Part shown: positions 5,466-46,350 of the stretch, piece by piece
Layout: the number at the start of each line of letters is the position of its first letter
How positions within the stretch are numbered: the first letter of the stretch is position 1
Assembly (NCBI RefSeq): GCF_036250695.1
Contig: NZ_CP109427.1
Location: forward strand, 1,240,001 to 1,304,000
Direction: 5' to 3'
Length of the DNA: 64,000 nucleotides
Source of the DNA: Streptomyces sp. NBC_01497
GTDB taxonomy: Bacteria; Actinomycetota; Actinomycetes; Streptomycetales; Streptomycetaceae
Made by a program: the position numbers and the translations under genes
Notes under the pieces: model-generated
What the model was told of the DNA's origin: nothing
The model's input: the letters and a program-made list of their open reading frames with translations, nothing else
Database searches by the model: none

Positions 5466-5507
5466 GCCGGCGGCGCCGGCCGCGAGCGCCGGGCACTTCG
5501 ACCGTAC

Positions 5508-5546
5508 GGGCCTGTCCCGGAGCGCCCCGCGCTTTCGGACAGGCCC
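5508..5546 (+). terminator. rho-independent-type hairpin after aldo/keto reductase
   Basis: Perfect 10-bp arms, GGGCCTGTCC (5508-5517) and GGACAGGCCC (5537-5546), enclose a 19-nt loop that holds a further short GC stem. There is no U-tract, which is usual in Streptomyces. It lies 43 bp after the stop of the reductase. Confidence 0.6.
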
Positions 5547-5605
5547 GGGGCGTTCCCGGCGCGTAGGGTGACGAACGTCCTGACCACGTACGAAGGGAGA
5601 CCGCC

Positions 5606-5911
5606 ATGGCGGCGGAAGCACTCGCGCCGGACGCCGTGCGGGACCGGCTGCGGGACCTGCCCGGCTGGTCCCTGACGGACGGCGGCATCACCCGTACCTA
5701 CAAGCTCACCTCCCACTTCGCGGCCACCGCCATGGTCGTGCACATCGCGCAACTGCAGGAGGAGCTGGGCCACCACTCGCAACTCACCCTCGGCTACAAC
5801 ACCGTCTCGCTCACCGTGAATACGCACGACGCGGGCGGCGCGGTCACGGGCAAGGACATCGAACTGGCCCGCAGGGTCGAGGCGACGGCCGCAGGGCACG
5901 CCGCGGAGTGA
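5606..5911 (+). CDS. 4a-hydroxytetrahydrobiopterin dehydratase (PCD/PhhB-like)
   Basis: This 101-aa protein is the normal length for pterin-4a-carbinolamine dehydratase, which dehydrates the 4a-hydroxy pterin made by aromatic amino acid hydroxylases. The core motif is present as EELGHHSQLTLGYNTVSLTVNTH, with the two adjacent histidines and the later His followed by Asp. The usual HHP has become HHS. Start ATG with GAAGGGAG upstream. No hydroxylase gene is adjacent, so its partner is elsewhere or it has another role. Confidence 0.85.
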   Translation: MAAEALAPDAVRDRLRDLPGWSLTDGGITRTYKLTSHFAATAMVVHIAQLQEELGHHSQLTLGYNTVSLTVNTHDAGGAVTGKDIELARRVEATAAGHAAE

Positions 5912-5996
5912 GACCGCGTCACCACGCGCCGCGTGGCGGCCACCGCACCCGCCGCGCACCGCAGCACCGGAGGACCGCGGGACCCGGGGGGGGAAC

Positions 5997-6800
5997 ATGA
6001 CCGCGCTCGTCCAGGACGCCGGTGTCGGGGGCCTGCTGCGCGACTGGCGTCGCAGGCGCCGGATCAGCCAGCTGGAACTGGCCATGCGCGCCCACTCCTC
6101 GGCGCGCCACATCAGCTTCGTCGAAACGGGCCGCGCCCGGCCGAGTGAGGAGATGGTGCTGCGGCTCGCCGAGCACCTGCAGGTACCGGTGCGCGAGCGC
6201 AACGCCCTGCTCCTCGCGGCGGGATACGCGCCCCGCTTCACCGAGACCGCACTGGACGACCCGGCCATGGCGGCGCTGCGCGACGGCCTGGAGCGGCTGC
6301 TTCGCGGGTACGAGCCGTACCCGGCGGTCGTCGTGGACGGCACGTACACGATGGTGGCGGCGAACAGCGGCGTCACGATGCTGGCGCAGGGGGTGGCGCG
6401 GCACCTGCTCGCGCCGCCGGTGAACACGATGCGCCTGGCGCTCCACCCCGAGGGCCTCGCGCCGCGCATCCGCAACCTGCCGCAGTGGCGCGGCCACCTG
6501 CTGGAACAGATGCGACGGCAGCTCGCGCTGACCCGGTCCGCCGCGCTGCGGGAGCTGTACGAGGAGGTCGACGCGTACCCCGTGCCGGCCGGCGGCCACG
6601 ATCCGGCCGCGCCCGCCGCGGTTCCCGGTTTCGCGCTCCCGATGGTGATCGAGCACGCCGGCGCGGTGCTGTCCTTCGTGTCGTCCATCGCGACCTTCAA
6701 CACCCCCATGGACATCACGGTGGCGGAGCTGGCGATCGAGACCTTCCTGCCGGCGGACCCGGCCACCGTCGCGTTCCTGAGGACCCGGGACAGCCAGTGA
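5997..6800 (+). CDS. XRE-family regulator with MmyB-like ligand-binding domain
   Basis: This 267-aa DNA-binding protein has an N-terminal Cro/C1-type helix-turn-helix (about residues 12-70: LRDWRRRRRISQLELA, then SFVETGRARPSEEMVLRLAEHL). It is followed by a PAS-like MmyB ligand-binding domain (about 90-260), recognised by VVVDGTYTMVAANSGV and the LRxxP-type stretch. Proteins of this architecture are very common in Streptomyces and often regulate a neighbouring gene; here no divergent oxidoreductase is present, so the target is unclear. The start follows a G-rich Shine-Dalgarno (GGGGGG). Confidence 0.88.
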   Translation: MTALVQDAGVGGLLRDWRRRRRISQLELAMRAHSSARHISFVETGRARPSEEMVLRLAEHLQVPVRERNALLLAAGYAPRFTETALDDPAMAALRDGLERLLRGYEPYPAVVVDGTYTMVAANSGVTMLAQGVARHLLAPPVNTMRLALHPEGLAPRIRNLPQWRGHLLEQMRRQLALTRSAALRELYEEVDAYPVPAGGHDPAAPAAVPGFALPMVIEHAGAVLSFVSSIATFNTPMDITVAELAIETFLPADPATVAFLRTRDSQ

Positions 6801-33226: not shown

Positions 33227-33310
33227 TCTCCCAGGCCAGTGGGGCTCTGACCCACCGACGTCCATGATGAACGCGTCCAGTAGACCACTCACGGTGCCGG
33301 GCGCCTGACA

Positions 33311-33351
33311 CCGGTCCCGCGCGGTGGTGGCGCCGGTCCCGCGCGGTGGTG
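33311..33351. repeat. 19-bp direct repeat upstream of the M55 operon
   Basis: CCGGTCCCGCGCGGTGGTG is present at 33311-33329 and 33333-33351 (period 22 bp, about two helical turns). It lies 85-125 bp before the M55 gene, in its probable promoter region, and could bind a regulator or be a simple duplication. Confidence 0.55.
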
Positions 33352-33476
33352 TGCCGGGGTGGAAGCCACCGATCCGTTGACCGGACTACCGAAGGACACG
33401 CCGGGCGGGAGCGTATCCCTCGCTTGGCCTAGTCGGTAAACGTTGCGCATCCCGACGACGAAGGAGCGCAACGGAG

Positions 33477-34716
33477 TTGAACGAGCAATCCCGTGATGTT
33501 CGCGCTATTCAGCTGCCCCGATGGGGGCGGGTGGCCGCGGACGAGGGTGTCGTGCCCTGGCTGGTCTTCGATGAGGAGGGGAAGGTCGTGCTGCCGGTAC
33601 GAAGGTTCCTGATCGACTTCATCGCCCGGGACAACCGGACCGGCAGCGTACGCAGCTACGCCTACGACCTGCTCCGCTGGTGGCGCTGGCTGCGCGTGGT
33701 CGATGTCGAGTGGCACCGCGCGACGTCGGTGGAGGTACGGGATTTCGTCCTGTGGCTCCGGGCTGCGACGAAGCCGCGCAGGTCGGCGCGGACACATTCT
33801 GCGGCGACTGTGGGCACCACGAATCCGATCACGAAGAAGACGTACCTGGACGACCTCTACAAGCCGCGGACGATTCGGCACAGCAACGCGGTGCTGCGCA
33901 GCTTCTACGACTTCTGGATCGAGACCGGCGGTGGCCCGCTGGTCAACCCGGTGCCCCTGGCGCGGTCCGACCGGCGCCGGCCGCACGCCCATCACAATCC
34001 GCTGGAGCCCTACCGGGGCGAGGGGCGGCTGCGCTACAACCCGAGTCCCCAAGCGGCGACCGCGACAGATGCCCGACGAGCGGTGGAACGAGCTGTTCGC
34101 GGCCCTGCGCTCGAACCGGGACCGGGCGATCCTGGCCTTGGCCGTCAGCAATGGCGCCCGCGCCTCGGAGCTGCTGGGCGTGCGTGGGGTCGATCTCGAC
34201 TGGGGCGACCAGCTCGTGCGGGTGGTGCGCAAGGGCACGCTCGCCGAGCAGTGGCTGCCGGCCAGCGCGGAGGCGTTCATCTGGATTCGCCTCTACCTGG
34301 CCGAAGGGCCGCCGCTGGACCCACAGGCCCCGCTGTGGTGGACCCTGCGCCGCCGTGACCACGGCGCAGGGCTGGCCTACCAGACCATGAACTACGAGGC
34401 CCTTCGGGCGGTGTTCCGCCGCGTCAACACCCTGCTGGGCACGAACTGGTCGATGCACGACCTGCGGCACACGGCCGCCCTGCGCATGGCACGCGACGAG
34501 AGCCTGTCGCTGCGGGACGTGCAGACCATCCTCGGTCACGCCCACCTGTCCACCACGGCGGACGTCTACTTGGTGGAGGAGGAAGCCCAGGTCATCCGCC
34601 GGGTCCAGGAGCATCTGGCCGAGGTGAGGGACCGAGCGAAACCCCCGCCGCCGACAGTGGCGGGCGGCTACGAAGCCAGCGACCTGGACGTGCTGTTCGG
34701 GGGTGGTCAGGCATGA
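33477..34716 (+). pseudogene. tyrosine recombinase A, single-base frameshift
   Basis: This is a site-specific integrase with the SAM-like N-terminal core-binding domain (about residues 1-180) in one frame and the catalytic domain in the next. The catalytic residues are intact: Arg in NGARASELLG, His-X-X-Arg in MHDLRHTAA, His in LGHAHLSTT and Tyr in ADVYLVEE. Frame 1 runs from the TTG at 33477 (AAGGAG upstream) to about 34050; removing one C from the CCCC run at 34047-34050 joins it to the second frame and gives a 412-aa product. Left alone, frame 1 stops at 34358. This is a disabling indel, a sequencing error or, less likely, a programmed +1 shift. Its stop overlaps the start of recombinase B. 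Confidence 0.8.
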
Positions 34717-37193
34717 GCCGCCGTGCCAACCGCGTGATGCTCGCGGGCACCGGGCCCACCCCCGAGCGGCGCCTGTTCGTCACACACGACGTGAAGGCGG
34801 ACGAGAAGCGCGTCGGCCCCCACGAGCATCTGGGACGTGACGACGTCCTGGCCCTGCTGCCGCTCTCCCCGGTCTGGCCAGCACAGGACTACAGCAACGG
34901 CCGCACGCTGGGCCGATACCGCCTGATCGGGGCCGGGCAGATCCTCGACTGGCTCCTGACCCACCCCGGGGACGGCTGGCAGGCCCGATGGAGGGCGGCC
35001 GATGCCGACTGCGGCAAGGACTGGATCGAGCAGGTCCTCGACCGGACCGACAACGGCCACAGCTACCAGGCACGCAGGTCAGCGCTGCTGAGCGGCCTGA
35101 ACAGCATGTTCATCAGCGGCATTGTGCTGCCCGACTACGAGTTCATGCGTGGCTACAAGGCCATGGCGCTGTTCAAAGACGTCCAGCGAATGTTCCCGCC
35201 GGGGACGCTGGAGCAGATGCGCCGTCACGGCAGCGAGTTGGGCATGACGGGCCGGCACGTCGACGAGGGCCTGCGCGTGATCTCCAAAATGATCCTGCAC
35301 ACCGGCCGTGACGTTGACCAGCTCACTGCGGAGGACGTCTTCGAGGCGCGGGCCTGGGGACGGCGGGCCATTGGCTACTCCTACGACGGAACCCACAGCG
35401 CTTGGGACCTGATGCGCGGCGCCGGGGTGATCCACTCCAAGGACACACTCAAGGACGCGCTGCGGCACGGCCAGCGGCCCACGGCCGAGCTGGTCGACTT
35501 CTACAACCTCCAGAGCACACCCGTGCGCAACCTGCTGGTCCGCTACCTCGAAGAACGCCGGCCCGGCGTCGACTACGGCACCTTCGTCGGCCTGGCCCGT
35601 GAGCTGGCCGGCGTGTTCTGGGCTGACATCGAGGCCCACCACCCCGGCATCGACAGCCTCCGCCTGCCCGACGAAGTCGTCGACGGGTGGAAGCAGCGGC
35701 TGCTCACCTACGTCAACAAGAGCGGTGAGGTCGTGGAGCGTCGCTCCCGCTACGACGTCATGATGCGCGTCCGCGGCTTCTACCTCGACATCCAGGAATG
35801 GGCACACGAAGATCCGTTCTGGGCACAGTGGGCCTGCCCGAGTCCGATCCGCCGCGGCGACGGCGCCGGCAACTTCAAGGTCGTGGCCCAGGTTCAGGCC
35901 CGGATGCACCAGCGGGTCCGCGAGCGGCTCCCTCACCTCGGGCGCCTGGTCGAGGCCGCCGAGCGTGAGCGCGATGAGACGGCCGCGCTGCTGGCGGCCG
36001 CGAAGGCTACCGCGTTCGACGAGTACTTCGAGCACGAGGGCACCCGCTATCTGCGGGTCATGCCCGCTGCCCACAAGGTCACCAGCCGCCCTGACCACGT
36101 CACCCCGCACGTCTACGTCCATGCCGAGGGCAGCACGAAGCGGATCAACCAGAGCATGGCCGAGGACGAGGCGTTCTGGGCCTGGGCCGTCATCGAGACC
36201 CTGCGGCACACCGGAGTACGCGTCGAGGAACTCACCGAGATCACGCACCTGGCGCTTGTCTCCTACAAGCTCCCCGACACCGGCGAGATCGTCCCGCTGT
36301 TGCAGATCGTGCCGTCCAAGAGCAACGAGGAACGGCTACTGCTGGTCAGCCCGGAACTGGCCAGCGTCCTGGCCACGATCATCAAACGCCTTCGGGACGC
36401 CAACGGCGGCAAGATCCCGCTCGCCGCCCGCTACGACGACCACGAGCGTGTCACCGGACCGGTGCTGCCGCACCTCTTCCAACGCCGCCACTACTGGCAG
36501 CCGCAGGTCATGGGGCAGAACACCGTCTCCCGCCTGCTCCGCAAGACACTGGCCCGGATGGGGCTGCGCGATCAGGCCGGCAACCCGATGCGCTACACGC
36601 CCCACGACTTCCGCAGGATGTTCGCCACCGAGGCCGTCACCGGCGGACTGCCTGTCCACATCGCCGCTCGCATTCTCGGACACAAGAGTCTGACGACCAC
36701 GCAGGCATACCTCGCGGTCTTCCAGGACGACCTGATCCGCACCTACCGCGGCTTCCTCGACCGCCGCCGGGCCGAGCGCCCCGTCGAGGAATACCGGGAG
36801 CCCACCGAACAGGAGTGGCGCGACTTCCAGCAGCACTTCGAGTTGCGCAAGATCTCCCTCGGCACCTGCGGGCGCCCCTACGGCACCCCTTGCAAGCACG
36901 AACACGCCTGCATCCGCTGCCCCGTCCTCCAGATCGACCCACGCCAGCGATCGCGGCTCATCGAGATCATCCAGAACCTACGCGAACGCATTCGCGAGGC
37001 CCGCGCCAACGGCTGGCTCGGCGAGGTCGAAGGGCTCCAGGTCAGCTCTGACGCCGCGATGGCCAAGCTCAACAGCCTCAAGAGCACCCCCACCGACGGA
37101 CGACCGCAACTGGTCGACCTCGGCATGCCCGTCTTCACCGACGACACACCGTCGCCGCGTCCGGATACGGGTGAGCCCGGACTCCAAGACTGA
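34713..37193 (+). CDS. tyrosine recombinase B (large site-specific integrase)
   Basis: This 826-aa protein has a long N-terminal region (about 1-450) and a catalytic domain near 480-690. Catalytic residues are Arg in RHTGVRVEEL, Lys in VPSKSNEERLL, His-X-X-Arg in YTPHDFRRMF, His in LGHKSLTTTQ and Tyr in QAYLAVF. A cysteine/histidine cluster follows (CGRPYGTPCKHEHACIRC, about 710-730), a likely zinc-binding DNA-contact module, then a coiled-coil-like tail. It is much longer than phage integrases and similar in size and architecture to TnpB-type partners in two-recombinase elements. Coupled to recombinase A by ATGA. Confidence 0.85.
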   Translation: MSRRANRVMLAGTGPTPERRLFVTHDVKADEKRVGPHEHLGRDDVLALLPLSPVWPAQDYSNGRTLGRYRLIGAGQILDWLLTHPGDGWQARWRAADADCGKDWIEQVLDRTDNGHSYQARRSALLSGLNSMFISGIVLPDYEFMRGYKAMALFKDVQRMFPPGTLEQMRRHGSELGMTGRHVDEGLRVISKMILHTGRDVDQLTAEDVFEARAWGRRAIGYSYDGTHSAWDLMRGAGVIHSKDTLKDALRHGQRPTAELVDFYNLQSTPVRNLLVRYLEERRPGVDYGTFVGLARELAGVFWADIEAHHPGIDSLRLPDEVVDGWKQRLLTYVNKSGEVVERRSRYDVMMRVRGFYLDIQEWAHEDPFWAQWACPSPIRRGDGAGNFKVVAQVQARMHQRVRERLPHLGRLVEAAERERDETAALLAAAKATAFDEYFEHEGTRYLRVMPAAHKVTSRPDHVTPHVYVHAEGSTKRINQSMAEDEAFWAWAVIETLRHTGVRVEELTEITHLALVSYKLPDTGEIVPLLQIVPSKSNEERLLLVSPELASVLATIIKRLRDANGGKIPLAARYDDHERVTGPVLPHLFQRRHYWQPQVMGQNTVSRLLRKTLARMGLRDQAGNPMRYTPHDFRRMFATEAVTGGLPVHIAARILGHKSLTTTQAYLAVFQDDLIRTYRGFLDRRRAERPVEEYREPTEQEWRDFQQHFELRKISLGTCGRPYGTPCKHEHACIRCPVLQIDPRQRSRLIEIIQNLRERIREARANGWLGEVEGLQVSSDAAMAKLNSLKSTPTDGRPQLVDLGMPVFTDDTPSPRPDTGEPGLQD

Positions 37194-37201
37194 CCGTCAG
37201 T
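37189..37201. promoter_or_regulatory. palindrome ACTGAC-C-GTCAGT at the recombinase B stop
   Basis: A perfect 6+1+6 inverted repeat overlaps the TGA of recombinase B and lies 23 bp before the ATG of the next gene. It could be an operator for the downstream gene or a recombinase contact site. Confidence 0.4.
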
Positions 37202-37223
37202 GGTTGCTGGCAGCATCACCGCT

Positions 37224-38270
37224 ATGAACGCCATATTTACCACCCCGCCGCGGCCGTTCGACGTCACCGCGCTCTTCCCTCAACTGGCCCCGCTGGCGCG
37301 CACGGCGACCCGGCTGCACCCGCGACCCGGGTCGCCGACCGTGCACGACAGCTCCGTCGGCGGGCCGCTCCTGTGGCCCACCGACGAGCCGTGGCCGTAC
37401 TGCGAAGAACCGCACGACAGGCATGCGGCGCTCAGGATCAACTCCCCGGATGACATCCGGCTCGAGCGCCGTGTCCTCGCCGCAGCGGCCGAGCGCCTTC
37501 ACCTCGACCCCGAGGCACCCCAGTGGACCCCGGAGGACCAGGAGACCTTGGATCTGATCAGGGCGGGCCGCCCATGGTTCGACGGCCCGATCCCTCTCCT
37601 GCCCGTCGCCCAGTTGTACGCCCGCGACATCTCCTTCCCCTGCCCGCCAGACGCGGACCTGCTCCAAGTCCTGTGGTGCCCCTTCGACCACGAGATGGCA
37701 CACCCGAAGACCGCCCTGTTCTGGCGGTCCTCCGCCACCATCACCGACGTCCTCGACGCACCGCCCGAGCCGTCGATCGTCCAGGACGGTTGCTACCTCC
37801 CGGAGCCGTGCCTGTTCTCACCGGAGCAGGTCACCGACTACCCGAACCCCAGCGAGTTGAGCAAGGAGCTTCGGGAGCAGCTGGACGACGAGAGCAGCTG
37901 GGAGACGATCGACCCCGCGCAGTACAACGCGTACGCCTACGATCCGGGCGAGCTCTACCTGAACAACCTCTGCACCGCCCCCGGCTGGAAAACCGGCGGC
38001 TGGACCCGCTGGAGCCCCACCGACCCCGTCGACCGCGCCTGCCCGGAGTGCGGCACCGAGGCGGTCCCTCTCCTCACCATCGCCTCATGGGAATGGGACG
38101 GCGGCAGCGCGACCTGGATCGCCGAGGAGGACCGGCCGACCCCGGGCCCGCCGCCCCTAGGCGCCCGGGACGGCAACTTCACCTTGATCGACATCACCGG
38201 CGGCAACAACCTGCAACTCCACGTCTGCCCGTCTTCCCCTCACCACCCCCACTTCGAACTGCTCCAGTGA
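37224..38270 (+). CDS. conserved hypothetical protein, possibly YwqG/DUF1963-like
   Basis: This 348-aa protein is probably cytoplasmic (no signal peptide or membrane segment). Features that recall bacterial YwqG/DUF1963 proteins are an N-terminal GGPLLWPTDEPWPYCEE, FDGPIPLLPVAQLYARDI, a YLPEPC segment and a C-terminal LLTIASWEWDGG. A Cys-X2-Cys pair (RACPECGTE) suggests a metal site. The function is not known. The ATG at 37224 is used; an in-frame GTG at 37200 would add eight residues, and neither has a clear ribosome-binding site. It is carried inside the recombinase element as probable cargo. Confidence 0.7.
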   Translation: MNAIFTTPPRPFDVTALFPQLAPLARTATRLHPRPGSPTVHDSSVGGPLLWPTDEPWPYCEEPHDRHAALRINSPDDIRLERRVLAAAAERLHLDPEAPQWTPEDQETLDLIRAGRPWFDGPIPLLPVAQLYARDISFPCPPDADLLQVLWCPFDHEMAHPKTALFWRSSATITDVLDAPPEPSIVQDGCYLPEPCLFSPEQVTDYPNPSELSKELREQLDDESSWETIDPAQYNAYAYDPGELYLNNLCTAPGWKTGGWTRWSPTDPVDRACPECGTEAVPLLTIASWEWDGGSATWIAEEDRPTPGPPPLGARDGNFTLIDITGGNNLQLHVCPSSPHHPHFELLQ

Positions 38271-38274
38271 GCTC

Positions 38275-38293
38275 GTGCGGAAGTCCTCCGCAC
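38275..38293 (+). terminator. small hairpin just after the cargo gene
   Basis: GTGCGGA (38275-38281) pairs with TCCGCAC (38287-38293) around a 5-nt loop, 5 bp after the TGA. Confidence 0.35.
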
Positions 38294-38405
38294 CGACGCC
38301 TACGCCACAATCGACACCGCGATCGACTGTCCGGTAAGCCGTCTTGGCCAACTACCGGAGATCCAAACGACGGGCCCAAGCGGCCCCAACACCAATGTCA
38401 CAACG

Positions 38406-38432
38406 AGCGGCCCCGTCACAGACGGGGCCGCT
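38406..38432 (+). terminator. strong 12-bp hairpin terminator of the recombinase element
   Basis: AGCGGCCCCGTC (38406-38417) pairs perfectly with GACGGGGCCGCT (38421-38432) around a 3-nt loop and is followed by TTCGTGTC. This is the most canonical terminator in the window and ends plus-strand transcription of the element. Confidence 0.75.
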
Positions 38433-38455
38433 TTCGTGTCGAGGAGGCCTGAACC

Positions 38456-38596
38456 TTGATCGTTCTCTTAGTCCGGAAAAGGGCCAGCGGCCTCACTGAA
38501 ATCCTTGCTCGAGCACTTCGCGAACGTGGCCGTGAGGTCGAAGTCGAGCACCTCCACGTCCAACTCCCCCGGGTTCTGAAGACGGCCGCCTCATGA
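38456..38596 (+). CDS. small ORF spanning the left copy of the 16-bp repeat (unknown)
   Basis: A 46-codon frame starts with TTG and has GGAGG about 10 nt upstream. It encodes IVLLVRKRASGLTEILARALRERGREVEVEHLHVQ-type sequence, basic and helical, ending ..KTAAS. The repeat CTTAGTCCGGAAAAGG encodes LVRKR near its start. It contains a rare TTA codon. I do not recognise it; it may be the 5' stub of a larger gene cut by recombination. Confidence 0.3.
   Translation: MIVLLVRKRASGLTEILARALRERGREVEVEHLHVQLPRVLKTAAS
38467..38482. repeat. 16-bp direct repeat CTTAGTCCGGAAAAGG, copy 1 (att-like)
   Basis: Identical to the copy at 38850-38865, 383 bp away. It is the leftmost of the two right-end repeats of the putative element and a candidate recombination core. 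Confidence 0.6.
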
Positions 38597-38625
38597 TCGA
38601 GCCCTCGGCCTGGCAGACGCGACAG

Positions 38626-38847
38626 TCAACAAGTTGGTACGGGGTCACCAGCGGAGCTGTCGCCAAACGTGTTGCCTGCGGTGAGGCCCTCGACGAACGA
38701 GCGGAAGTCATCAGCCAGGGCGAGCTCAGAGCCGTGGTCGGTCTCGAACCATGTGACCGAGGGCTCACCATCTCGCCCGCAAGTTCGGTAATCGAGCCCG
38801 ATCCAGCAGTGCCCGCTCAGCGGCACTGGCCTCAGCTGCAAGATCAT
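38626..38847 (-). pseudogene. truncated SMI1/KNR4-like protein (C-terminal fragment)
   Basis: Seventy-three residues remain. The stretch WIGLDYRTCGRDGEPSVTWF followed by LADDFRSFVEGL matches the C-terminal part of SMI1/KNR4-superfamily (SUKH) proteins, many of which are immunity proteins to contact-dependent toxins. The N-terminal half is missing. The first Met codon is 2 bp from repeat copy 2, and an in-frame TAA lies inside the repeat, so the gene was cut there. Confidence 0.55.
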
Positions 38848-38849
38848 TT

Positions 38850-38865
38850 CTTAGTCCGGAAAAGG
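38850..38865. repeat. 16-bp direct repeat CTTAGTCCGGAAAAGG, copy 2 (att-like)
   Basis: A perfect copy of 38467-38482. It lies at the break of the SMI1-like fragment; to its right the sequence reverts to typical non-coding chromosomal DNA. Confidence 0.6.
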
Positions 38866-39119
38866 ACGGCGGGGCCGGGACGCTCCGCGGACTGCGAGGG
38901 GACGACTCGGCGGACCGCCGGTCGGTGACCGGTCGGCGGGCACGGCGCAGGGGGGCCGGGACGGGGAGAAGCGCCGCGGCCCTGAGCGGGCGAGAGGCCT
39001 GACGTCGGCGGGCGTGGACCGACCGTGCGCGAAGCCCTGGTGCTCGCCCAGCCGGCGACGAGGTGCCCGGCCGCGCGACACGAGGGGAGCAGTAGGAGGG
39101 GACAGCAGGAGCCCGGGGG
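38866..39119. other. gene-free region downstream of the cold-shock gene
   Basis: About 250 bp of GC-rich sequence without a supported gene. It includes near-palindromic GGTCGGTGACCGGTCGG around 38922-38937. Confidence 0.4.
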
Positions 39120-39533
39120 CTACGTCTCGACCCAGCCGTGGTCGGCGGCGAGCTTCGCGAGGTGGCGCCGGATCCCCAGGATCTGCTCGGCCGTGATCCC
39201 GGGCGCGGCGCTGAGCAGGGCTTCCGTGACCTCTTCTGTGAACTCGCGGGCGGTCAGGATGTCGCAGAGCCCGTCGTCCACCGGGGTACGCGGCTCCGGG
39301 TGGTGTGCGGCGGGCGCGAACCTGTCGCCCTCCAGCACACTGACGTGGGCGGCTTTGAGGCCCTTGTCCCCGTTCTCCACGTCGAACTCGACGGTCACAC
39401 CGGGCGTGAGCTGGGACTTGTCCACCACGAGGTCGTTCACATGCAGGAAGACGTCGTCACCGCCACCGCTGGGGGCAACGAAACCGTAGCCGCGGACCGC
39501 GTCGAACCGGATGACCTTGCCCGTTGCCACCAT
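39120..39533 (-). CDS. cold-shock domain protein with C-terminal extension
   Basis: This 137-aa RNA/ssDNA-binding protein has an N-terminal cold-shock domain (about residues 3-70) with RNP1 (RGYGFVAP) and RNP2 (DVFLHVND) motifs. A helical extension follows (about 85-137: LTAREFTEEVTEALLSAAPG, then QILGIRRHLAKLAADHGW). Plain CspA-type proteins are about 67 aa; this longer actinobacterial form is thought to act as an RNA chaperone. The start is ATG 39533 or the adjacent GTG 39530 with ATGGGGTG upstream. Confidence 0.86.
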   Translation of the reverse strand: MVATGKVIRFDAVRGYGFVAPSGGGDDVFLHVNDLVVDKSQLTPGVTVEFDVENGDKGLKAAHVSVLEGDRFAPAAHHPEPRTPVDDGLCDILTAREFTEEVTEALLSAAPGITAEQILGIRRHLAKLAADHGWVET

Positions 39534-39810
39534 GCACCCCATCACTCGCGCCGGCCCTGCCGGCATGCCGCCCCCGTGGTGGCACCCTGACCCGCCACCG
39601 CGCGTCACGCTACCGCACCCTCCGTCAGGGGTGAAGGCGGTGGCGGAGGGCGGCGGCTGCGGCCGGTGGCCCGGTCCCGGGACCGCCGCGGCGCTGCGAG
39701 CCGGGCGCGGGCCGCGGGCAGGCGGGCACGCGCCGGCTGCTCGCGGGCCGCGTGCCGCGGTTCCCGCACCGGATGTTGCGTACGCCCTCCGGTGGGGCAG
39801 GAACTGCCCC

Positions 39811-40782
39811 ATGACACTGAGCCGTCGCTCCCTCATACGCTCCGCCGCCGCCGTCGCCACCACCGCTCTCGTGACCGGCGGCGGCATCGGGTCCGCGCGT
39901 GCGTCGACCGCCGTCCGCGCCGGCGCGGCCACCGGCAGCGCGTTCCCCGCCGACTGGATGGGGGCGCTGCCGGACACCCTGTCGCTGCTGCGGATGACGG
40001 TCCCCGGCACCCACGACTCCTGCTGCACCGACCCGGCCAACGGCACCGAGTGGTCGCACACCCAGAACTGGGGGATCACCGAGCAACTCCAGCGCGGCAT
40101 ACGCTTCCTGGACATCCGGGCCAACGGCCTCCAGGACCATCTCGGCGACGCGTTCGGGATCTACCACTCCTCGTTCTACCAGGGCATCACGTTCGACGGC
40201 GTGCTCGCGCAGTGCCGCGACTTCCTGCAGCAGCATCCGCACGAGACGATCGTGATGCGGCTGAAGAAGGAGGACGGCACCAGCAACGACGTCGGGGCCG
40301 GCTTCAAGGACGTGATGAACGTGTACCTCGACACGAAGGGCTGGCGCCCCTGGTTCCTGCTCGCCGACCAGGTGCCCTCGCTCGGCGAGGCGCGCGGGCG
40401 GATCGTCCTGATCACGCAGTTCGACAACGACCTGCCGGTTCTGCGGTGGCCGGGCGGCGACAACGACTTCCTGTCCAACCAGTGGTTCTCGCTCCAGGAC
40501 ATCTACCAGGGACTGTCCTCGCCGTCCCAGAAGACGGCAAAGGTCAGCCGGCAGTTCGACAGCGTCGCCGGGGATCAGGACTCGGCGCTGATGTACATCA
40601 ACTTCACCAGCTACGCGGGCGGCGGCTGGCCCAAGGTCAACGCGGACGCGATCATGCCCGGAGTGCAGAGCTACCTGAACGGGCGGCTGTCGGACCGCAC
40701 GCACCTCGGCGTCGTCCCCATGGACTTCCCGGACTTCCACTCGGACACGCTGAGCGCCCTGATCGACTGGAACTGGCACTGA
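39811..40782 (+). CDS. secreted phosphatidylinositol-specific phospholipase C-like protein
   Basis: The 323-aa protein carries a Tat-type signal (SRRSLIRSAAAVATTALV, residues 4-21) and is probably exported. The PI-PLC X domain shows the two catalytic histidines in TVPGTHDSC and FGIYHSSFYQG, with DIRANG and MRLKKEDG metal/substrate segments between. It should cleave phosphatidylinositol or a glycosyl-PI anchor with a cyclic phosphate intermediate. ATG at 39811; the open frame upstream is non-coding in character. It sits beside another secreted phosphoesterase. Confidence 0.87.
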   Translation: MTLSRRSLIRSAAAVATTALVTGGGIGSARASTAVRAGAATGSAFPADWMGALPDTLSLLRMTVPGTHDSCCTDPANGTEWSHTQNWGITEQLQRGIRFLDIRANGLQDHLGDAFGIYHSSFYQGITFDGVLAQCRDFLQQHPHETIVMRLKKEDGTSNDVGAGFKDVMNVYLDTKGWRPWFLLADQVPSLGEARGRIVLITQFDNDLPVLRWPGGDNDFLSNQWFSLQDIYQGLSSPSQKTAKVSRQFDSVAGDQDSALMYINFTSYAGGGWPKVNADAIMPGVQSYLNGRLSDRTHLGVVPMDFPDFHSDTLSALIDWNWH

Positions 40783-40858
40783 CGACAGCCGGCGTCCCGG
40801 CGCCGGCGGGGTACGGGGCGGCCATGCGCGCGCCCGTACCCCGCCGGATCGGCCGGGC

Positions 40859-42697
40859 TCAGCCGTGGGCCCCGCTGCGGCGGCGTAGTGCGAAGGCGGC
40901 GACGGAGGCCACCACCAGGGCTCCGCCGATGGACACGGCGACCCACGGCGCGCCGCCGCTGCCGCCGGGCGCCGCCATACGCAGCGCCGTGTTCTGTTCC
41001 CGCAGGCCGGTGATGCTCGCGGTGACGGGTGCGACGGCCCGGATCGGTCCGAGGGAACGCACGGAGCCGTCGCTGTTCAGCAGCGTCTGCCGGTTGTTGG
41101 GATGCCGGAAGTCGAACATGCTCGCGAGGCTTCCGGCGCGGCTGTCGAAGGAGTGGTCACCGATGGCCCGCGTCCCCCAGTTCTGCTCGATGAACCGGGT
41201 GATGGAGGCCTGCTCCGTCTTGGTGTGGTCGACGTGGTTGACCTTGCTGAACGGTGAGATCACGAGCAGCGGCTGCCGCGCGCCGGGCCCGCACCGGTCC
41301 TTGTAGCCGCCCGCAGCGGGCGGTCCCGTCTGGCACATCGGACTGTCCGTGGCCGCTCCGGTGGATGTCGGCGTGGAGTCGGTCGACCCGTTCAGCACCG
41401 GGGATGCGACGTGGTCGTACCAGCCGTCCGAGTCGTCGTAGGCCACGACGACCGCCGTGTCCTTCCACTGCGGCGACTGCTGGATCTTGTTGATCTGCCC
41501 GACGAGGAAGTGCTGTTCGTCGATGGGGTCGGAGTAGCCGGCGTGCCCGTCCTGGTACGAGGGCGCCTTCAGGAAGCTCACGGACGGCAGCCGCCCGGCC
41601 TGCAGGGCCGCGTCGAAGTCGGTGAGGTCGTAGTTGTGGTTGGCGCGCCCGGCGTGGCCGATCTCGGCGACGGAACGCGGCGCGAGGTGATGCGGGTTGG
41701 CGGTGGTGGCGTAGTACTGGAACGGGTCGTGGTGCGGGCTGTAGTCGACGGAGGAGGCGCCGCCGACATTGGCGTGGGTGGTGCCGGTGCACTTCGCGTG
41801 GTCGGCGCTGTCGCCGTTCCAGGGGGTGCTGGGCCGGAACCCGCCCTGGAACCAGCCCCAGCTGACGCCCTGCTCGTTGAGCCGGTCACCGATGTTCTTG
41901 CCGGTCAGCATCGCGAGTGAACTCTTGCTGGTGTGATCGCTGTCGGAGCAGTCGTCGAAGGCCGGGTCCGGGTCGTTGATCAGGGTGCCCACCCCGTTCT
42001 TGCCGGGGGAGGCCACGGCGGCGGGGTCGGGTGTCGCGGTGCGCTTCGGGTGCTCGGTCGAGGAGGCCGGGTCCGTGGAGACGACGCCGTGCGTCTGTCC
42101 GGAGACCAGCTCGATCGCGCCGGGCGTCGAGGGGCCGTACGCCGAGCCGAACGAGTTGTCGCTCAGGGCGTAGTGCTGCGCGTAGTTCCACAGGGCGGTG
42201 ACGGTGTTGCCGTCGTAGTAGTCCATGACGAGGCCCGGCTCGTAGTACAGGTTGCCGGAGCACCGGCCCGAGTCGGTGTTCTCAACGAACTTGTCGGCCT
42301 TGCCGCCGTTGTAGGCGTACTGCTCACGGTCGTAGTCGTGCCGCTGGTCGCAGGTGACGGCCTGGTCGGGGCCGAGCCGCTTGGGGGGGTACTGGTTGGG
42401 GTTGTCGGTGAGCAGACCCGCCGTGCGCAGGTTGTCGATCCCCCGGGGGGTGCCCGGTGAGGCGGTGAACGGGGTGCCGTCGGCGTTGGCGGCGTGCGGG
42501 TACGTCGCGAAGTAGTGGTCGAACGAGATGTTCTCGTCGAACAGGACCACCAGGTGCTTGACCGGCGTGGTGGTCCCCCCGCCGTGACTCGTGCCGTTCG
42601 CGTGCGCGGTGCCGCCGGTGGCCAGCGTGGCGAGCGCCGCGGCCCCGAGCCACGCGCCCCACCTCCGGCTGCGCGCGGTCCTGCCTGTCCAGCCCAT
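40859..42697 (-). CDS. secreted phospholipase C / phosphoesterase family protein
   Basis: This 612-aa exported protein belongs to the phosphoesterase family that includes bacterial non-haemolytic phospholipase C and acid phosphatase AcpA. It has a signal peptide (about 1-33), then the family opening KHLVVLFDENISFDHYFATYP with the metal-binding Glu/Asn, a later YDDSDGWYDHV, and ends with one hydrophobic helix plus basic residues (LVVASVAAFALRRR), a membrane or wall anchor without LPXTG. ATG at 42697 with GAGGG upstream. The upstream region carries GTTCA repeats in 11-bp register that resemble PHO boxes. It releases phosphate from phospholipids, probably during phosphate limitation (inferred). 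Confidence 0.87.
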   Translation of the reverse strand: MGWTGRTARSRRWGAWLGAAALATLATGGTAHANGTSHGGGTTTPVKHLVVLFDENISFDHYFATYPHAANADGTPFTASPGTPRGIDNLRTAGLLTDNPNQYPPKRLGPDQAVTCDQRHDYDREQYAYNGGKADKFVENTDSGRCSGNLYYEPGLVMDYYDGNTVTALWNYAQHYALSDNSFGSAYGPSTPGAIELVSGQTHGVVSTDPASSTEHPKRTATPDPAAVASPGKNGVGTLINDPDPAFDDCSDSDHTSKSSLAMLTGKNIGDRLNEQGVSWGWFQGGFRPSTPWNGDSADHAKCTGTTHANVGGASSVDYSPHHDPFQYYATTANPHHLAPRSVAEIGHAGRANHNYDLTDFDAALQAGRLPSVSFLKAPSYQDGHAGYSDPIDEQHFLVGQINKIQQSPQWKDTAVVVAYDDSDGWYDHVASPVLNGSTDSTPTSTGAATDSPMCQTGPPAAGGYKDRCGPGARQPLLVISPFSKVNHVDHTKTEQASITRFIEQNWGTRAIGDHSFDSRAGSLASMFDFRHPNNRQTLLNSDGSVRSLGPIRAVAPVTASITGLREQNTALRMAAPGGSGGAPWVAVSIGGALVVASVAAFALRRRSGAHG

Positions 42698-42739
42698 ACC
42701 GATGGCCCTCCGATCCTCGCGGGTGACGCCGAGACGACA

Positions 42740-42802
42740 TTCAGATGAACGCCGAGAGTCTGCCGAATGAACGGCCCGCTGGCCAGACGCCGTACCGTGA
42801 AC
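42740..42802 (-). promoter_or_regulatory. candidate PHO-box repeats upstream of the phospholipase C gene
   Basis: Reading the minus strand, GTTCATTCGGC (42762-42772) and GTTCATCTGAA (42740-42750) are exactly 22 bp apart, that is two 11-bp units, with an intermediate weak unit. A third GTTCACGGTAC lies at 42792-42802. PhoP of Streptomyces binds 11-bp direct repeats starting GTTCA. Only two of the four registered units match well. Confidence 0.45.
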
Positions 42803-42976
42803 GGTCCGGCTTGTCCCGGCCCGTCCCCCCGTCCGGCCCATGTCCCGGACGGGACGCCGTCCGCCGGCGCCTCCCCTCCCCGCCTTCCTCGCCTTCGCCG
42901 CGCATCCGTTGACATGTCCAGGTACGGTTGCTGGGATGGGGTACGACGCTTTCCGTCCCCCAGCTGGAGCGTTCCC

Positions 42977-45547
42977 GTGCCGATCTCTCGCCGTGTCCTC
43001 CTCTCCGGTCTGCCGGCCGGGGTCCTGGCGGCCGCCGCCGCGCCGCTGCGGGCCGCGGCCCTCTCCCCCGGTGCCGCCCCCGCGGGCGATCCCGCCGTGA
43101 CGGCGGCGAACACCGTGGCGCTGCTCGCGGGAACCGCCGCGAGTTCGGCGCGGCCCGAGGCAGCCGCCCGGCTCGCCGCCATCGAGTCCACCGCGCGCGG
43201 GCGGCTCGCCGCTCTGGACGCCGCCGGGGACGGCGAGTTGTTCGAGGGCCTGCCGCTCGGCACCAGCGACCCCAACCTCCGGGCGTCGTACCAGTACCTG
43301 TACGACATCGCGCTGGCGACCCGCGTGCCGGGGGCCGCCGGGTCAACGCTGCGCGGCGACACGGCTGTTCAGGACCGGGTGATCGACGCCCTCGCCGAAC
43401 TCCATGACGACTGGTACGGGGACCAGGCACGCGGCTACTACGGCAACTGGTACACCTGGGAGATCGGCATCTCCTCGGCGGTCAGCCGGACGCTCGTGCT
43501 CCTCGCCGACCGGCTCGCCGGCCGCCTGCCCGCTCTGACGGCGGCGTACGTGGCGTCCATGGACGGCTACCTGCGCAACGGCAAGGACGGCGACGTCGAC
43601 CTCGACTCGCGCTTCCACACCGGTGCGAACCTCGCGGACATCACGACCAACCGCGTCCTGCAGGGGAGCGTGCTCGCCGATTCCCGGCGGATCGCCAAGG
43701 CGGTCGCCGACCAGCTGACCGTGCTCGCCACGATCAACCCGTACCACCTCGACCATCAGGTGACGGACGGGTTCTACGCGGACGGCTCGTTCCTGCAGCA
43801 CGCCTCGGTCGCCTACACCGGCTCCTACGGCAGGGACCTGCTGGGCCGGGTCGTGGACACCGTCACGATCCTGGACGGCGCCGGTTACACCGACGTCGCT
43901 CCCGTGGTGGCCGTCGCGCGGGGCTGGATCGTCCGCTCGTTCGCCCCGGTGATCTTCGAGGGCTGGATGATGGAGATCGTGAAGGGCCGCGGTGTCTCCC
44001 GGACGACCTCCGGGTACGCGGACACGGCCGCGATCATCGAGGCCGTCGTGGGTCTCAGCGGCTACGCGACAGGCGCCGACGCCACCGCGCTGCGCGGCTA
44101 CGCGCGCTTCCTGCACCAGGCGTCGCACGCGGCTCCCACCCCCGCCGGGTTCGTCTCCCCCGTGCGCGCCGTGCGGTACGCCGACATCCTCGCCGACACG
44201 TCACTGCCCGCCCGGGACCTGGCGGGGGCGCGGGGCAACCACGCGTTCGGGGCGATGGACCGGACCGTCCACCGGCGGCCGGGCTGGGCCTTCGCGCTGG
44301 CCCGCAGTTCCACCCGGGTCAGCGCGTACGAGTACATGAGCGGCGAGAACCTCATGCCCTGGTTCCAGGGGGCCGGCGCCCACCACCTGTACCTCCGGGG
44401 GCAGGACCAGGCGCAACGCTTCGGTGCGGACCACCTCGCCACCGTCCCGCCCTACCGCCTCGCGGGGGTCACGGCGCCGGTGGAGGCCCGCCGGACGGTG
44501 CCGCAGCTGTACGGCACGCAGTGGTTCGACGACCCGGCGGCCGGCTTCACGGCGTCGTCGGACTCCCAGAACGCGTACGTCTACTTCCCGCGTTCCACCA
44601 ACTCCTTCTCCGGCGGCGTGAGTCTGGACGGCTTCGGCACCGCCGGCCTCGTCCAGGGCGACGACGCGGCCTACGCGGCCCAGCAGGCCGGAGAGCTCCC
44701 GGACGGCTTCGTCGCGTACCGCGGTGCGGAGGCCGTCAAGTCCTGGTTCCTGCTGGACGAGGAGGTCGTGGTGCTCGTCGCGGGCGCCGGTGACGCGGCG
44801 GGTCGCGGAGTCACCACCACGCTCGACACCCGCGTCAGCGACCCCGCGGACCCGGTCCGCGTCACCGGCCTGCGCCGCGACGGCCGGGCCTGGACGCCCG
44901 GCGAGGCGGCCGTGCCGCTCGCCTGGCTGCGCTGGTCCGACGGTGAGGACGGGCCGTCCGTCGGCTACGTCTTCCTCGACGGGCCGCCGCCCGTCGTCAG
45001 CCTGGAGACGGTCACCCGCAGCAGGCGGCTGGTCCGGGCGGCCAACCCGGACACCCCCGTCACCAAGCGGGTCTTCTCCGTGGCATACGAGCAACAGCCG
45101 GGTGCGGCCCGGATGTCGGCGGCCTACGCTCTCCTCCCGCTCGCCTGCGAACGGCGGTTGTCCGCGTACGGCGGTGACCGGCACTCCCCGGAGGTGCTGG
45201 CCAACACCACGCGCCTGCAGGCCCTCGCGCACCGGGGGCTCGGCCTGACGGCGCTCAACGCCTTCACCTCGGGTACGCATCGCGTACCGGGCCTGAGCGT
45301 GGACGGCCCGGTCTCGGTGCTCGTACGGCGCGTGGACCGGGGCAGCGTCACCGTCGCGTTCGGGGACCCCACCACCGAGCTCGACCAGGTGGCCGTGACG
45401 TTGCACGGGGAGCCGCTGTCCGTCGTCTCGGCCGACGACGGGGTGCGTGTGCGGCGCGTCCCCGGTGGGACGCGCGTGGTGGCCGACACCCGGGAGGCCT
45501 ACGGCCGGAGCCTCACCGTGACGCTGCGTGCGAGCCGCAGGCCGTAG
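42977..45547 (+). CDS. secreted polysaccharide lyase family 8 (hyaluronate/chondroitin/xanthan lyase type)
   Basis: This 856-aa exported lyase has a Tat-type signal (ISRRVLLSGLPAGVLAAAAA), an alpha/alpha-toroid catalytic domain (about 45-390) and C-terminal beta-sandwich domains. Active-site residues fit PL8: Asn in TGANLADITTN, His in FLQHASVAYTGSYG with the following Tyr, and Trp/Tyr in NWYTWEIG. It cuts uronic-acid-containing polysaccharides by beta-elimination; hyaluronate is the usual Streptomyces substrate, but xanthan or chondroitin cannot be excluded. GTG at 42977 with GGAG upstream. It is divergent from the phospholipase and overlaps the convergent PAS gene by 35 bp. Confidence 0.87.
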   Translation: MPISRRVLLSGLPAGVLAAAAAPLRAAALSPGAAPAGDPAVTAANTVALLAGTAASSARPEAAARLAAIESTARGRLAALDAAGDGELFEGLPLGTSDPNLRASYQYLYDIALATRVPGAAGSTLRGDTAVQDRVIDALAELHDDWYGDQARGYYGNWYTWEIGISSAVSRTLVLLADRLAGRLPALTAAYVASMDGYLRNGKDGDVDLDSRFHTGANLADITTNRVLQGSVLADSRRIAKAVADQLTVLATINPYHLDHQVTDGFYADGSFLQHASVAYTGSYGRDLLGRVVDTVTILDGAGYTDVAPVVAVARGWIVRSFAPVIFEGWMMEIVKGRGVSRTTSGYADTAAIIEAVVGLSGYATGADATALRGYARFLHQASHAAPTPAGFVSPVRAVRYADILADTSLPARDLAGARGNHAFGAMDRTVHRRPGWAFALARSSTRVSAYEYMSGENLMPWFQGAGAHHLYLRGQDQAQRFGADHLATVPPYRLAGVTAPVEARRTVPQLYGTQWFDDPAAGFTASSDSQNAYVYFPRSTNSFSGGVSLDGFGTAGLVQGDDAAYAAQQAGELPDGFVAYRGAEAVKSWFLLDEEVVVLVAGAGDAAGRGVTTTLDTRVSDPADPVRVTGLRRDGRAWTPGEAAVPLAWLRWSDGEDGPSVGYVFLDGPPPVVSLETVTRSRRLVRAANPDTPVTKRVFSVAYEQQPGAARMSAAYALLPLACERRLSAYGGDRHSPEVLANTTRLQALAHRGLGLTALNAFTSGTHRVPGLSVDGPVSVLVRRVDRGSVTVAFGDPTTELDQVAVTLHGEPLSVVSADDGVRVRRVPGGTRVVADTREAYGRSLTVTLRASRRP

Positions 45548-46169
45548 GCGCCGGCTGCTGCGGCACGTATCGGACAGGGGTGACCGGAACCTGCCGGCGG
45601 TGGCTGAACTCCAGCACCGGGTAGCCCAGTTCGAGGATCCGCTCGGTGATGCGCGCGGCCTCGGCCCGGCCCATCGCCGGCAGTATGTACGGCAGTTGCG
45701 CGGCCAGACGCGGCGCGTCGGGGAACTGGGCGGGACGGGCGAAGCCCGGCATGGTCCGCGTACCGTACGACGACGGCAGCGCCCCGGGGCGGGACGGACG
45801 GCGGCCGCCCGCCGCGAGCACGAGATGCCCGGCCCCGCCGGCGCGGGCCAGGGGGTAGGCCCACCACAGGACATCGGTCCTGGCCCCGTCCGGCGCGGAG
45901 ATCGTGGCCCGGCCCGCCCTGGGGAGCGCCCCGGCCGCCGTGTCCCCGTGCGCGAGGCCGCCCTCGTCCTCGGCGAGCGCGCCCGCGACCGGCAGCAGAT
46001 CCTCGGCCTCACGGCCCGTCGCCTCGTGAGTGGAGTGGCCGAAAAGCCTCCTCGCGCCCGTCGACCAGTGTGAGACCAGGCCGTCACGGTCCACGACGGC
46101 CACGGCGAGCGGCATCCGGCCCGCCGCGGCGACCTGCCGCGACAGACGCGGCGGAAAACCACTGTCCAT
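45513..46169 (-). CDS. PAS-domain protein
   Basis: This 218-aa protein has one PAS domain (about residues 10-110: PLAVAVVDRDGLVSHWSTGARRLFGHSTHEATGRE), as found at the N-terminus of Streptomyces SpoIIE-type phosphatases. No phosphatase, kinase or other output domain follows, so it is a stand-alone sensor or adaptor. The ATG at 46169 has AAGGAG upstream. The coding end overlaps the PL8 gene on the other strand. Confidence 0.78.
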   Translation of the reverse strand: MDSGFPPRLSRQVAAAGRMPLAVAVVDRDGLVSHWSTGARRLFGHSTHEATGREAEDLLPVAGALAEDEGGLAHGDTAAGALPRAGRATISAPDGARTDVLWWAYPLARAGGAGHLVLAAGGRRPSRPGALPSSYGTRTMPGFARPAQFPDAPRLAAQLPYILPAMGRAEAARITERILELGYPVLEFSHRRQVPVTPVRYVPQQPAPTACGSHAASR

Positions 46170-46350
46170 GGGGTGAGGACTCCTTCCGTGCCGCCAGGAG
46201 ATCCGCGGCCCTGGACACCACGGTACGGCTACGGCGGGGCGCTGAGGGGGCGATTCGCCAAGACATGCCCCGCCCCGGTGCCGCCGATTTGTTGACTGAA
46301 ATTCAGTCAATCACCGGCCGCCATCCGGAAGCCCCGCCGGAACCCGCCGT

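Follow-up and report, generated by a model that had tools for sequence, protein, structure and literature searches.

A tandem pair of tyrosine recombinase genes, followed by a cargo gene and two perfect copies of a 16-bp sequence, raises the question of what kind of element occupies this part of the genome of Streptomyces sp. NBC_01497 and where that element begins and ends. We analysed it within a stretch of 64,000 nt (the window; GCF_036250695.1, contig NZ_CP109427.1, positions 1,240,001 to 1,304,000). An earlier note, made from the sequence alone, had proposed a mobile two-recombinase element related to Tn554, which is borne out by Pfam matches of the recombinases and by sister copies at other places, and had suggested a poorly described actinobacterial family, which has to be withdrawn, the family being already present in the accessible text of PMC3414803 (2012). 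We conclude that the locus very probably holds a Tn554-related two-recombinase transposon of this known family, about 5.49 kb long from its left end (LE) at 33377 to a second right end (RE2) at 38863, with two right ends and the tail of a rapZ gene, a broken tnpA, and relatives that insert into tnpB as well. What the present reading of sequences would add to this known family is a description of its ends, of the polarity of its core, of its targets and of the insertion of members into one another. Coordinates are window positions on the + strand unless stated otherwise, L numbers denote fetched loci of relatives and G numbers genus genomes, and genus-level searches covered 295 genomes.

Ends, targets and core polarity

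The exact 16-mer CTTAGTCCGGAAAAGG is present twice at the right side of the locus, as had been noted, at 38467–38482 and 38850–38865, 383 bp apart. When up to 3 mismatches were allowed, at least two matches were present in 1 of 100 shuffles. The exact sequence occurs in 3 of the 295 genus genomes (two copies in the window genome and one in each of two others), and the reversed control in none. The 16-mer is thus rare. Of the two other genomes, one has it against rapZ again (L046); in the other (G009) it lies at about 6246 of L054, far from the listed TnpB match of that genome.

The ends were placed by comparing the element of S. filamentosus JCM 4122, whose TnpB is 97% identical to the window TnpB and which lies at another place, with L059 (S. 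fumigatiscleroticus), L056 (Streptomycetaceae MP113-05, same place as L037), L058 (Kutzneria), L036 (G025) and L120 (plasmid pS1D4-14.1). The left end is TTGACCGGACTA at 33377 and the right end is TTAGTCCGGAAAA. The related sequence just left of tnpA that had earlier been taken for a left repeat (33428–33442) is conserved but sub-terminal, starting 51 bp in from the left end; a boundary at 33428 was rejected, as sister alignments extend about 50 bp further outward, where the target gene begins. LE, TTGACCGGACTAC at 33377–33389, matches the right end in inverted orientation at 10 of 13 positions. It is preceded by the left 6-bp core GATCCG (33371–33376), the same hexamer as in the 97%-identical S. 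filamentosus element, and by the left target arm GGTGGAAGCCACC (33358–33370), which, read directly, resembles the rapZ landing site (GCGGGAAGCACA in L057). On the right, TTAGTCCGGAAAA is matched at 38468–38480 (right end 1, RE1) and again at 38851–38863 (RE2); RE2 is followed by the presumed right core GGACGG (38864–38869), which would derive from the target by comparison with the sister elements.

The ends can be summarized as 13-bp inverted arms around a 6-bp core, TTAGTYCRGNNAA-NNNNNN-TTGACYGRACTAA, core length and spacer being read from junctions and not from a circle. LE-to-RE lengths of the six copies whose flanks could be joined are 4458, 5376, 9453, 4957, 5041 and 5384 bp. Distant relatives retain the end with an altered middle (TTGACTGAACTA or TTGACCGAACTA). 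Among the 29 loci L003–L031, 12 have TTGACCGGACTA within 2 mismatches in their first 420 bp, and several of the remaining ones perhaps lack it because the locus stops short. The window genome contains a single exact TTGACYGRACTA, at LE; apart from RE1 and RE2 it has two weaker TAGTYCRGNNAAG matches, against four for the reversed control. The right ends of a subfamily with 51–66% TnpB identity (L038, L040, L041) resemble TAGTCCGGATAAT, and its members seem to share another target gene; a lone end of similar type, TAGTCCGGATAAG, lies elsewhere in the window genome (L174). L036 carries at 3140–4440 a 1.3-kb insertion-sequence-like piece with ends GGCCGTGTTTTAG and CTAAAACACGGCC, between the left end and tnpA and within the sub-terminal sequence.

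Joining the flanks restored an open target frame in 6/6 joined copies (L057, L059, L036, L120, L058 and L056). In the first five the target is a gene with a RapZ C-terminal domain, cut after the GG(R/K)H codons and annotated in L120 as RNase adapter RapZ; in L056 it is a subtilase gene, with subtilase on both sides (Pfam was run on the pieces of L120, L057 and L058 and on both sides of L056). A seventh, the host element of L117, in which no right end was found, is not among the joined copies. Insertion splits the gene without longer duplication or loss and leaves one hexamer at each junction. As a hexamer stands at both junctions, the frame alone cannot tell that of the target from that of the element.

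Where it can be judged, the right hexamer is the target's own, as read from the junctions: in four Streptomyces rapZ insertions it is GGGCCG, GGGCAT, GGGCAT and GAGCAA, near the GGGCCA of the uninterrupted rapZ of L044; in tnpB insertions it spells Ala-Cys, with the invariant C733; and in L107 it gives GTVHAN. The left hexamer follows the lineage of the element. Among 43 elements, with pairs binned by TnpB identity, it was identical in 4/4 pairs at 95% or above, 8/13 at 80–95%, 4/36 at 65–80%, 5/291 at 50–65% and 2/559 below 50%; some of these pairs share a target. By analogy with the related families, TnpA and TnpB, each of which has the catalytic residues of a tyrosine recombinase, would act together: after binding to the inverted arms they would swap strands at the 6-bp core and so insert a circular form. 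As read from the junctions, the element enters between the left arm of the target and the target's core, with the target hexamer staying on the right and the element's own hexamer on the left. The targets are short conserved coding motifs, so that sites exist in genes on plasmids (rapZ), in secretion genes and in other elements.

These sister copies bear directly on the possibility that the window simply contains fixed chromosomal genes and no mobile element. Such a reading could draw on the broken tnpA and on the lack of a recovered empty site for the window copy, but the 97%-identical TnpB lies at a different place in S. filamentosus, and among the genus genomes a TnpB match is present in 182 of 295 and in none of the other 113, most of the listed matches being below 60% identity or partial. 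The different places of near-identical copies contradict this reading, which we consider very improbable.

A composite with two right ends

The 16-mers had been called att-like. They do mark the right end, but they are two successive right ends and not att sites flanking something. RE1 is directly followed, at 38481–38596, by the core GGGCCA and the last 37 codons and stop of the target gene with the RapZ C-terminal domain (family assigned from relatives), at the same core position as in the sister elements. RE2 lies 383 bp beyond RE1; over 37 bp at RE2, identity to the right end of L056, the element in the subtilase gene, is 97%. The left flank of the window copy is not rapZ, though the 13 bases before the core resemble the rapZ site, and the 5' part of the rapZ target is not found at the left end. 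A search of the genome with that 5' part gave a single match at 43% in a 391-aa frame, taken as the chromosomal rapZ. As the genome contains neither a further TTGACYGRACTA nor a rapZ-5' match above 43%, the rapZ tail probably arrived with the element. Because RE1 is followed by the tail of the sister elements' target gene, the insert reads as a composite: the window copy has two right ends with a target-gene tail between them. The rest of the interval, from the rapZ tail to RE2 (38597–38850), may hold the end of a minus-strand gene, judged by eye.

The exact direct repetition of the 16-mers, 383 bp apart, would also fit a plain integrative element with attL and attR, in which they are the att repeats of a small separate insert (38483–38850). 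We regard this as highly improbable: independent full elements elsewhere finish with this same right-end sequence, the first 16-mer is followed by a target-gene tail, and the left end matches in inverted and not in direct orientation. The sister elements contradict a separate small element between RE1 and RE2, a reading that we rejected.

Two relatives suggest which right end bounds the composite insertion. In L107, joining the flanks of LE and RE2 yields a single open frame that encodes a type II/IV secretion ATPase (ALNTGHEGGC|GTVHAN), with T2SSE on both sides, and RE1 lies 217 bp before RE2, followed by a tnpB tail, ACIRRPMLRPDPRR, that resembles L107's own tnpB. In L123, the flanks of LE and RE2 are like those of the single element L116, again with RE1 and a tnpB tail inside. 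By comparison with these two loci, RE2 and not RE1 would be the boundary of the window insertion, in which case the uninterrupted site would read GGTGGAAGCCACC joined to GGACGGCGG. The DNA of L123 is L116-like (0.83–0.93) for 3.3 kb and then L102/L147-like (0.91–0.96 at 3.6–4.2 kb), with the switch inside tnpB. The L123 tnpB is thus chimeric, the outcome expected if a nested element and its host had undergone homologous recombination. In the window, identity to L057 is even until the last 120 aligned bp of tnpB, where it is 0.82, against 0.87–0.90 to L036, which is a weak hint of mosaicism.

The double right end probably arose when an element landed in a rapZ gene near the right end of another element and the two became one. 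Their fusion would have come about either through homologous recombination of one tnpAB copy with the other (nesting and collapse, which predicts a chimeric tnpB like that of L123) or through a move that used the farther right end. In the second case the whole LE-to-RE2 stretch would have transposed as one unit, skipping RE1, using the right end of a neighbouring element and carrying the rapZ tail as new cargo. This agrees with L107, where LE and RE2 bound a cleanly split gene with RE1 and a tnpB tail inside, and with the window genome, in which the 5' part of the mobile rapZ has no match beyond 43% and the tail probably arrived with the element. Against it, the chimeric tnpB of L123 is what homologous collapse predicts, and collapse can also explain L107, whose internal tnpB tail resembles its own. 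We consider transposition as one unit a real possibility, though somewhat short of probable. Nesting would provide the raw material for composites such as that in the window, a step that the L123 chimera supports for L123 and that we extend by inference to the window.

Among 66 TnpB genes, each searched over 6 kb, a right end with up to 1 mismatch was found in 33 and two right ends in 6 (the window, L107, L123, L099, L102 and L147). The second right end of L147 is the left end of another element read backwards; those of L099 and L102 are putative. L044 has at 4907–6170 a tnpB tail, within about 40 bp an uninterrupted but frame-shifted rapZ-like gene, and about 580 bp later a poor right-end match; a rapZ gene can therefore stand in the cargo position of an element.

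Several points weigh against the composite transposon as we read it. The placement of its boundary at RE2 is taken from relatives. The empty site of the window insertion, which the earlier note had proposed to look for, was not found in 8 relatives, although sister copies cleanly split rapZ and a subtilase gene. The right flank lies beside the left flank in none of 13 relatives, and in 8 of the 13 short matches to it lie elsewhere in the genome. The interval between a D-aminopeptidase and a major facilitator superfamily transporter (window 33293–46350; names assigned by eye) measures 145 bp in L165 and 1.5–3.8 kb in L163, L167 and L168; its length differs among relatives, and the place is therefore variable and insertion-prone. 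In the joins of L116 and L123, two of the three forward frames each have stops or are unconvincing, and the target gene is not identified. Finally, the window is not visibly chimeric relative to L057, except for the lower identity at the 3' end of tnpB.

Insertion into the tnpB genes of relatives

The tnpB gene of the window contains a site that other family members use, here unoccupied: the codons of HEHACIRCP at 36897–36923, with the core GCCTGC at 36906–36911. Many genomes hold just the last 80–90 residues of TnpB, and many such fragments start where the HEHACxRCP codons are cut. Both flanks are seen at six loci, L147 (the same as L040), L102, L110, L117, L118 (Rhodococcus DN22) and L119, all with the same layout of host tnpB, an inserted element with its own tnpB, and the remainder of the host tnpB; the inserted element is in reverse orientation in three of them (L147, L110 and L118). 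The host flanks join to a frame open through C-x-HEH-x-C-x-RCP in 5/5 joined loci, that is, all but L110. Thirteen further junctions are one-sided (L042, L044, L045, L047, L050, two in L051, L107, L114/L115, two in L123, L158 and L160), of which those of L050, L114 and L158 fit the motif less well. These junctions show that, in relatives, tnpB too is a target of this system, at the codons of the Cys/His motif.

Fragment ends give a quantitative view of the same site. Scanning within 30 bp and allowing up to 1 mismatch, we found the end motif at 22 of 32 TnpB fragment ends at amino acids 722–748, at 0 of 50 ends elsewhere and in 14 of 2000 random 60-mers; without duplicate loci the counts are 20/29 and 0/47. 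The nine misses among the 29 are L046, L048, L049, L050, L051 (two), L110, L114 and L158. Two facts speak against taking these counts at face value: loci L044–L051 were selected because their TnpB fragments begin near amino acid 730, and L046, L048 and L049, chosen in this way, lack the end motif there. Without both duplicates and L044–L051, the motif is present at 15 of 18 fragment ends, against 0 of 44 elsewhere. In 150 listed TnpB matches, not chosen for the motif, 14 of 129 internal ends fall at amino acids 724–744, and no 21-residue stretch has more.

The codon for Arg735 in the elements' own copies of the site raises a further point. Codons AGA and AGG for arginine are rare in Streptomyces. 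In the six two-flank elements, the own-site Arg735 is encoded by AGA or AGG in four (L110, L117, L118 and L119) and by CGT in two (L040/L147 and L102); codons 734–736 of the former four often read GTC AG(A/G) TG(C/T) instead of RTC CGC TGC. AGA or AGG is also present in three elements whose left flank is not tnpB (L101, L106 and L151) and in seven whose flanks are not known (L041, L114, L132, L136, L148, L152 and L160), and two tnpB fragments with AGA have themselves been targeted (L123). Self-avoidance by recoding of the element's own tnpB site is a weak idea, with counter-examples present.

Taken further, the Cys/His codons of tnpB might serve family members as an attachment site, in either orientation, for entering one another, and repeated nesting at this site and in rapZ with subsequent homologous collapse might act as a standing engine for two-right-end composites, target-tail cargo and recombinase-half chimeras, with tnpB-preying lineages having partly recoded their own site and avoiding themselves. 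We put this forward tentatively, as a speculation that in its full form is rather unlikely.

Recombinases, cargo and related systems

Both window recombinases match Pfam Phage_integrase. The long recombinase gene, tnpB (34713–37193), is an intact open reading frame of 826 aa, as had been stated, with catalytic residues R503, H631, R634, H657 and Y666, none of which varies when the window sequence is aligned with those of 29 relatives (30 sequences). The Cys/His cluster attributed to it is likewise present, as C719 and C727-K-H-E-H-A-C-I-R-C736-P. An AlphaFold2 model based on the 30-sequence alignment had a mean predicted local distance difference test (pLDDT) score of 74.3 and a predicted template modelling score of 0.63, with residues 708–732 below a pLDDT of 50. 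Among PDB structures it is matched best by tyrosine recombinases (Tn1549 integrase, XerA and Cre), none at an E-value of 0.001 or better; the predicted structure agrees with the tyrosine recombinase class and is uninformative on the Cys/His motif. Searches of PHROGs and NCBIfam gave nothing more specific than matches to integrases in general or to XerC/D-like proteins, none of which reached the NCBIfam cut-offs, and no close relatives were found in viral contigs by the patterns used. In L148–L152, TnpB relatives match only from residue 250–270 onward and may have a different or shorter N-terminal part.

The short recombinase gene, tnpA (33477–34716), is not the single 412-aa frame described earlier: it is frame-broken near 34,050, with the N-terminal domain (its piece matches Pfam Phage_int_SAM_1) and the catalytic domain in different frames. 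The reported ATGA coupling is present, as an overlap of the tnpB start with the stop of the preceding frame. A programmed frameshift near 34,050 could in principle make tnpA work, as there is a run of four C at the break (read directly) and the distant relative L031 likewise lacks a continuous frame across this inter-domain stretch. Yet the halves are in one frame in 27 of 29 relatives in which both were matched, the close L057 and L059 included, and the other exception, L003/L036, is broken elsewhere; we judge a programmed frameshift very unlikely. L057 has an open tnpA-tnpB pair, and tnpA is open in the S. filamentosus element with the 97%-identical match. Given the 27 relatives with one frame, the break would be a defect of the window's own copy or an assembly error, and with its tnpA broken this copy is probably immobile now. 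Between window positions 33371 and 37150, identity to L059 is 0.84–0.90 over the left end and tnpA and 0.69–0.86 over tnpB, a difference that might reflect separate histories of the two genes.

Downstream, the cargo gene reported earlier (37224–38270) encodes a 348-aa hypothetical protein of a kind common in Streptomyces, with 1961 proteins at an E-value of 0.001 or better among 8000 candidates scored, some relatives being named DUF1963. The terminator noted earlier corresponds to a terminator-like GC-rich hairpin followed by TTTCGT (38407–38431), read by eye and not scored by a tool.

With ends and targets read, the family becomes annotatable by its ends and testable through a defined 13-6-13 att, a core polarity that looks opposite to the one reported for the staphylococcal elements, and attB sites that occur naturally. 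That members enter the recombinase gene of a relative at a single conserved codon motif, and that this can yield a chimeric recombinase, amounts to a natural experiment on the division of labour and on specificity change in paired enzymes. The literature we found, PMC8138268 included and judged mostly by title and abstract, gives no account of these ends, of the core polarity, of the targets or of insertion into one another, and no paper joining Tn554 with RapZ was found in that search.

The target gene of Tn554 is radC. According to the available text of PMC3414803, Tn554 uses a unique site, unlike the relatives described here, which lie in rapZ, a subtilase gene, a T2SSE gene and tnpB. Like Tn554, for which the consulted part of PMC10214605 gives insertion without target duplication, these elements insert without duplication around a short core; here the flank joins keep the frame. 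Unlike in Tn554 proper, inspection of open reading frames (not a search with a TnpC model) showed no TnpC in the interval from tnpB to the right end, either in the window or in L057. The actinobacterial Tn554-related elements of PMC3414803 (Famint36/Famint41) have, in the accessible text, one long and one typical recombinase and no TnpC. The window agrees with them in its adjacent short and long tyrosine recombinases (the long one of 611–828 aa there and 826 aa here, the short partner being broken here) and in the lack of a visible TnpC, and its TnpB directly matches the members in NC_008697 (46.0% identity, 97% covered) and NC_008270 (39.9%, 94%). In the same text, mobility and attB sites are inferred from identical copies, and no ends, core, target genes or nesting are given for the actinobacterial elements.

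In the consulted part of PMC10214605, recombinase-in-trio (RIT) elements have three recombinases of 315–410 aa and 34-bp repeats; the present elements share with them several tyrosine recombinases acting together and differ in having two, one of 826 aa. SEs, which the same source records from several gammaproteobacterial orders, are built on four core genes (intA, tfp, intB and srap). They resemble the elements studied here in their imperfect 13–19 bp inverted repeats, 6-bp spacer and one ordinary plus one large recombinase; nothing lies between the ATGA-overlapping recombinase genes here and no further conserved gene was seen in L057, as judged without a tfp or srap model. With the staphylococcal Tn554 and Tn552-II, as presented in the available part of PMC12486829, the elements share the tnpA-tnpB pair, the short spacer between the ends and the use of genes as targets, though the target genes are others; among 24 records listed, five from Staphylococcus and Enterococcus match within TnpB residues 460–792 at 21–23% identity. 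In Tn552-II the donor att goes to the right (PMC12486829), and in SEs, too, the foreign hexamer is on the other side from that seen here (PMC10214605), whereas in the present elements the target hexamer is on the right and the lineage-bound hexamer on the left, the tnpA side being taken as left in both. The core polarity therefore looks opposite to that reported, in these portions of the sources, for the staphylococcal elements and for SEs.

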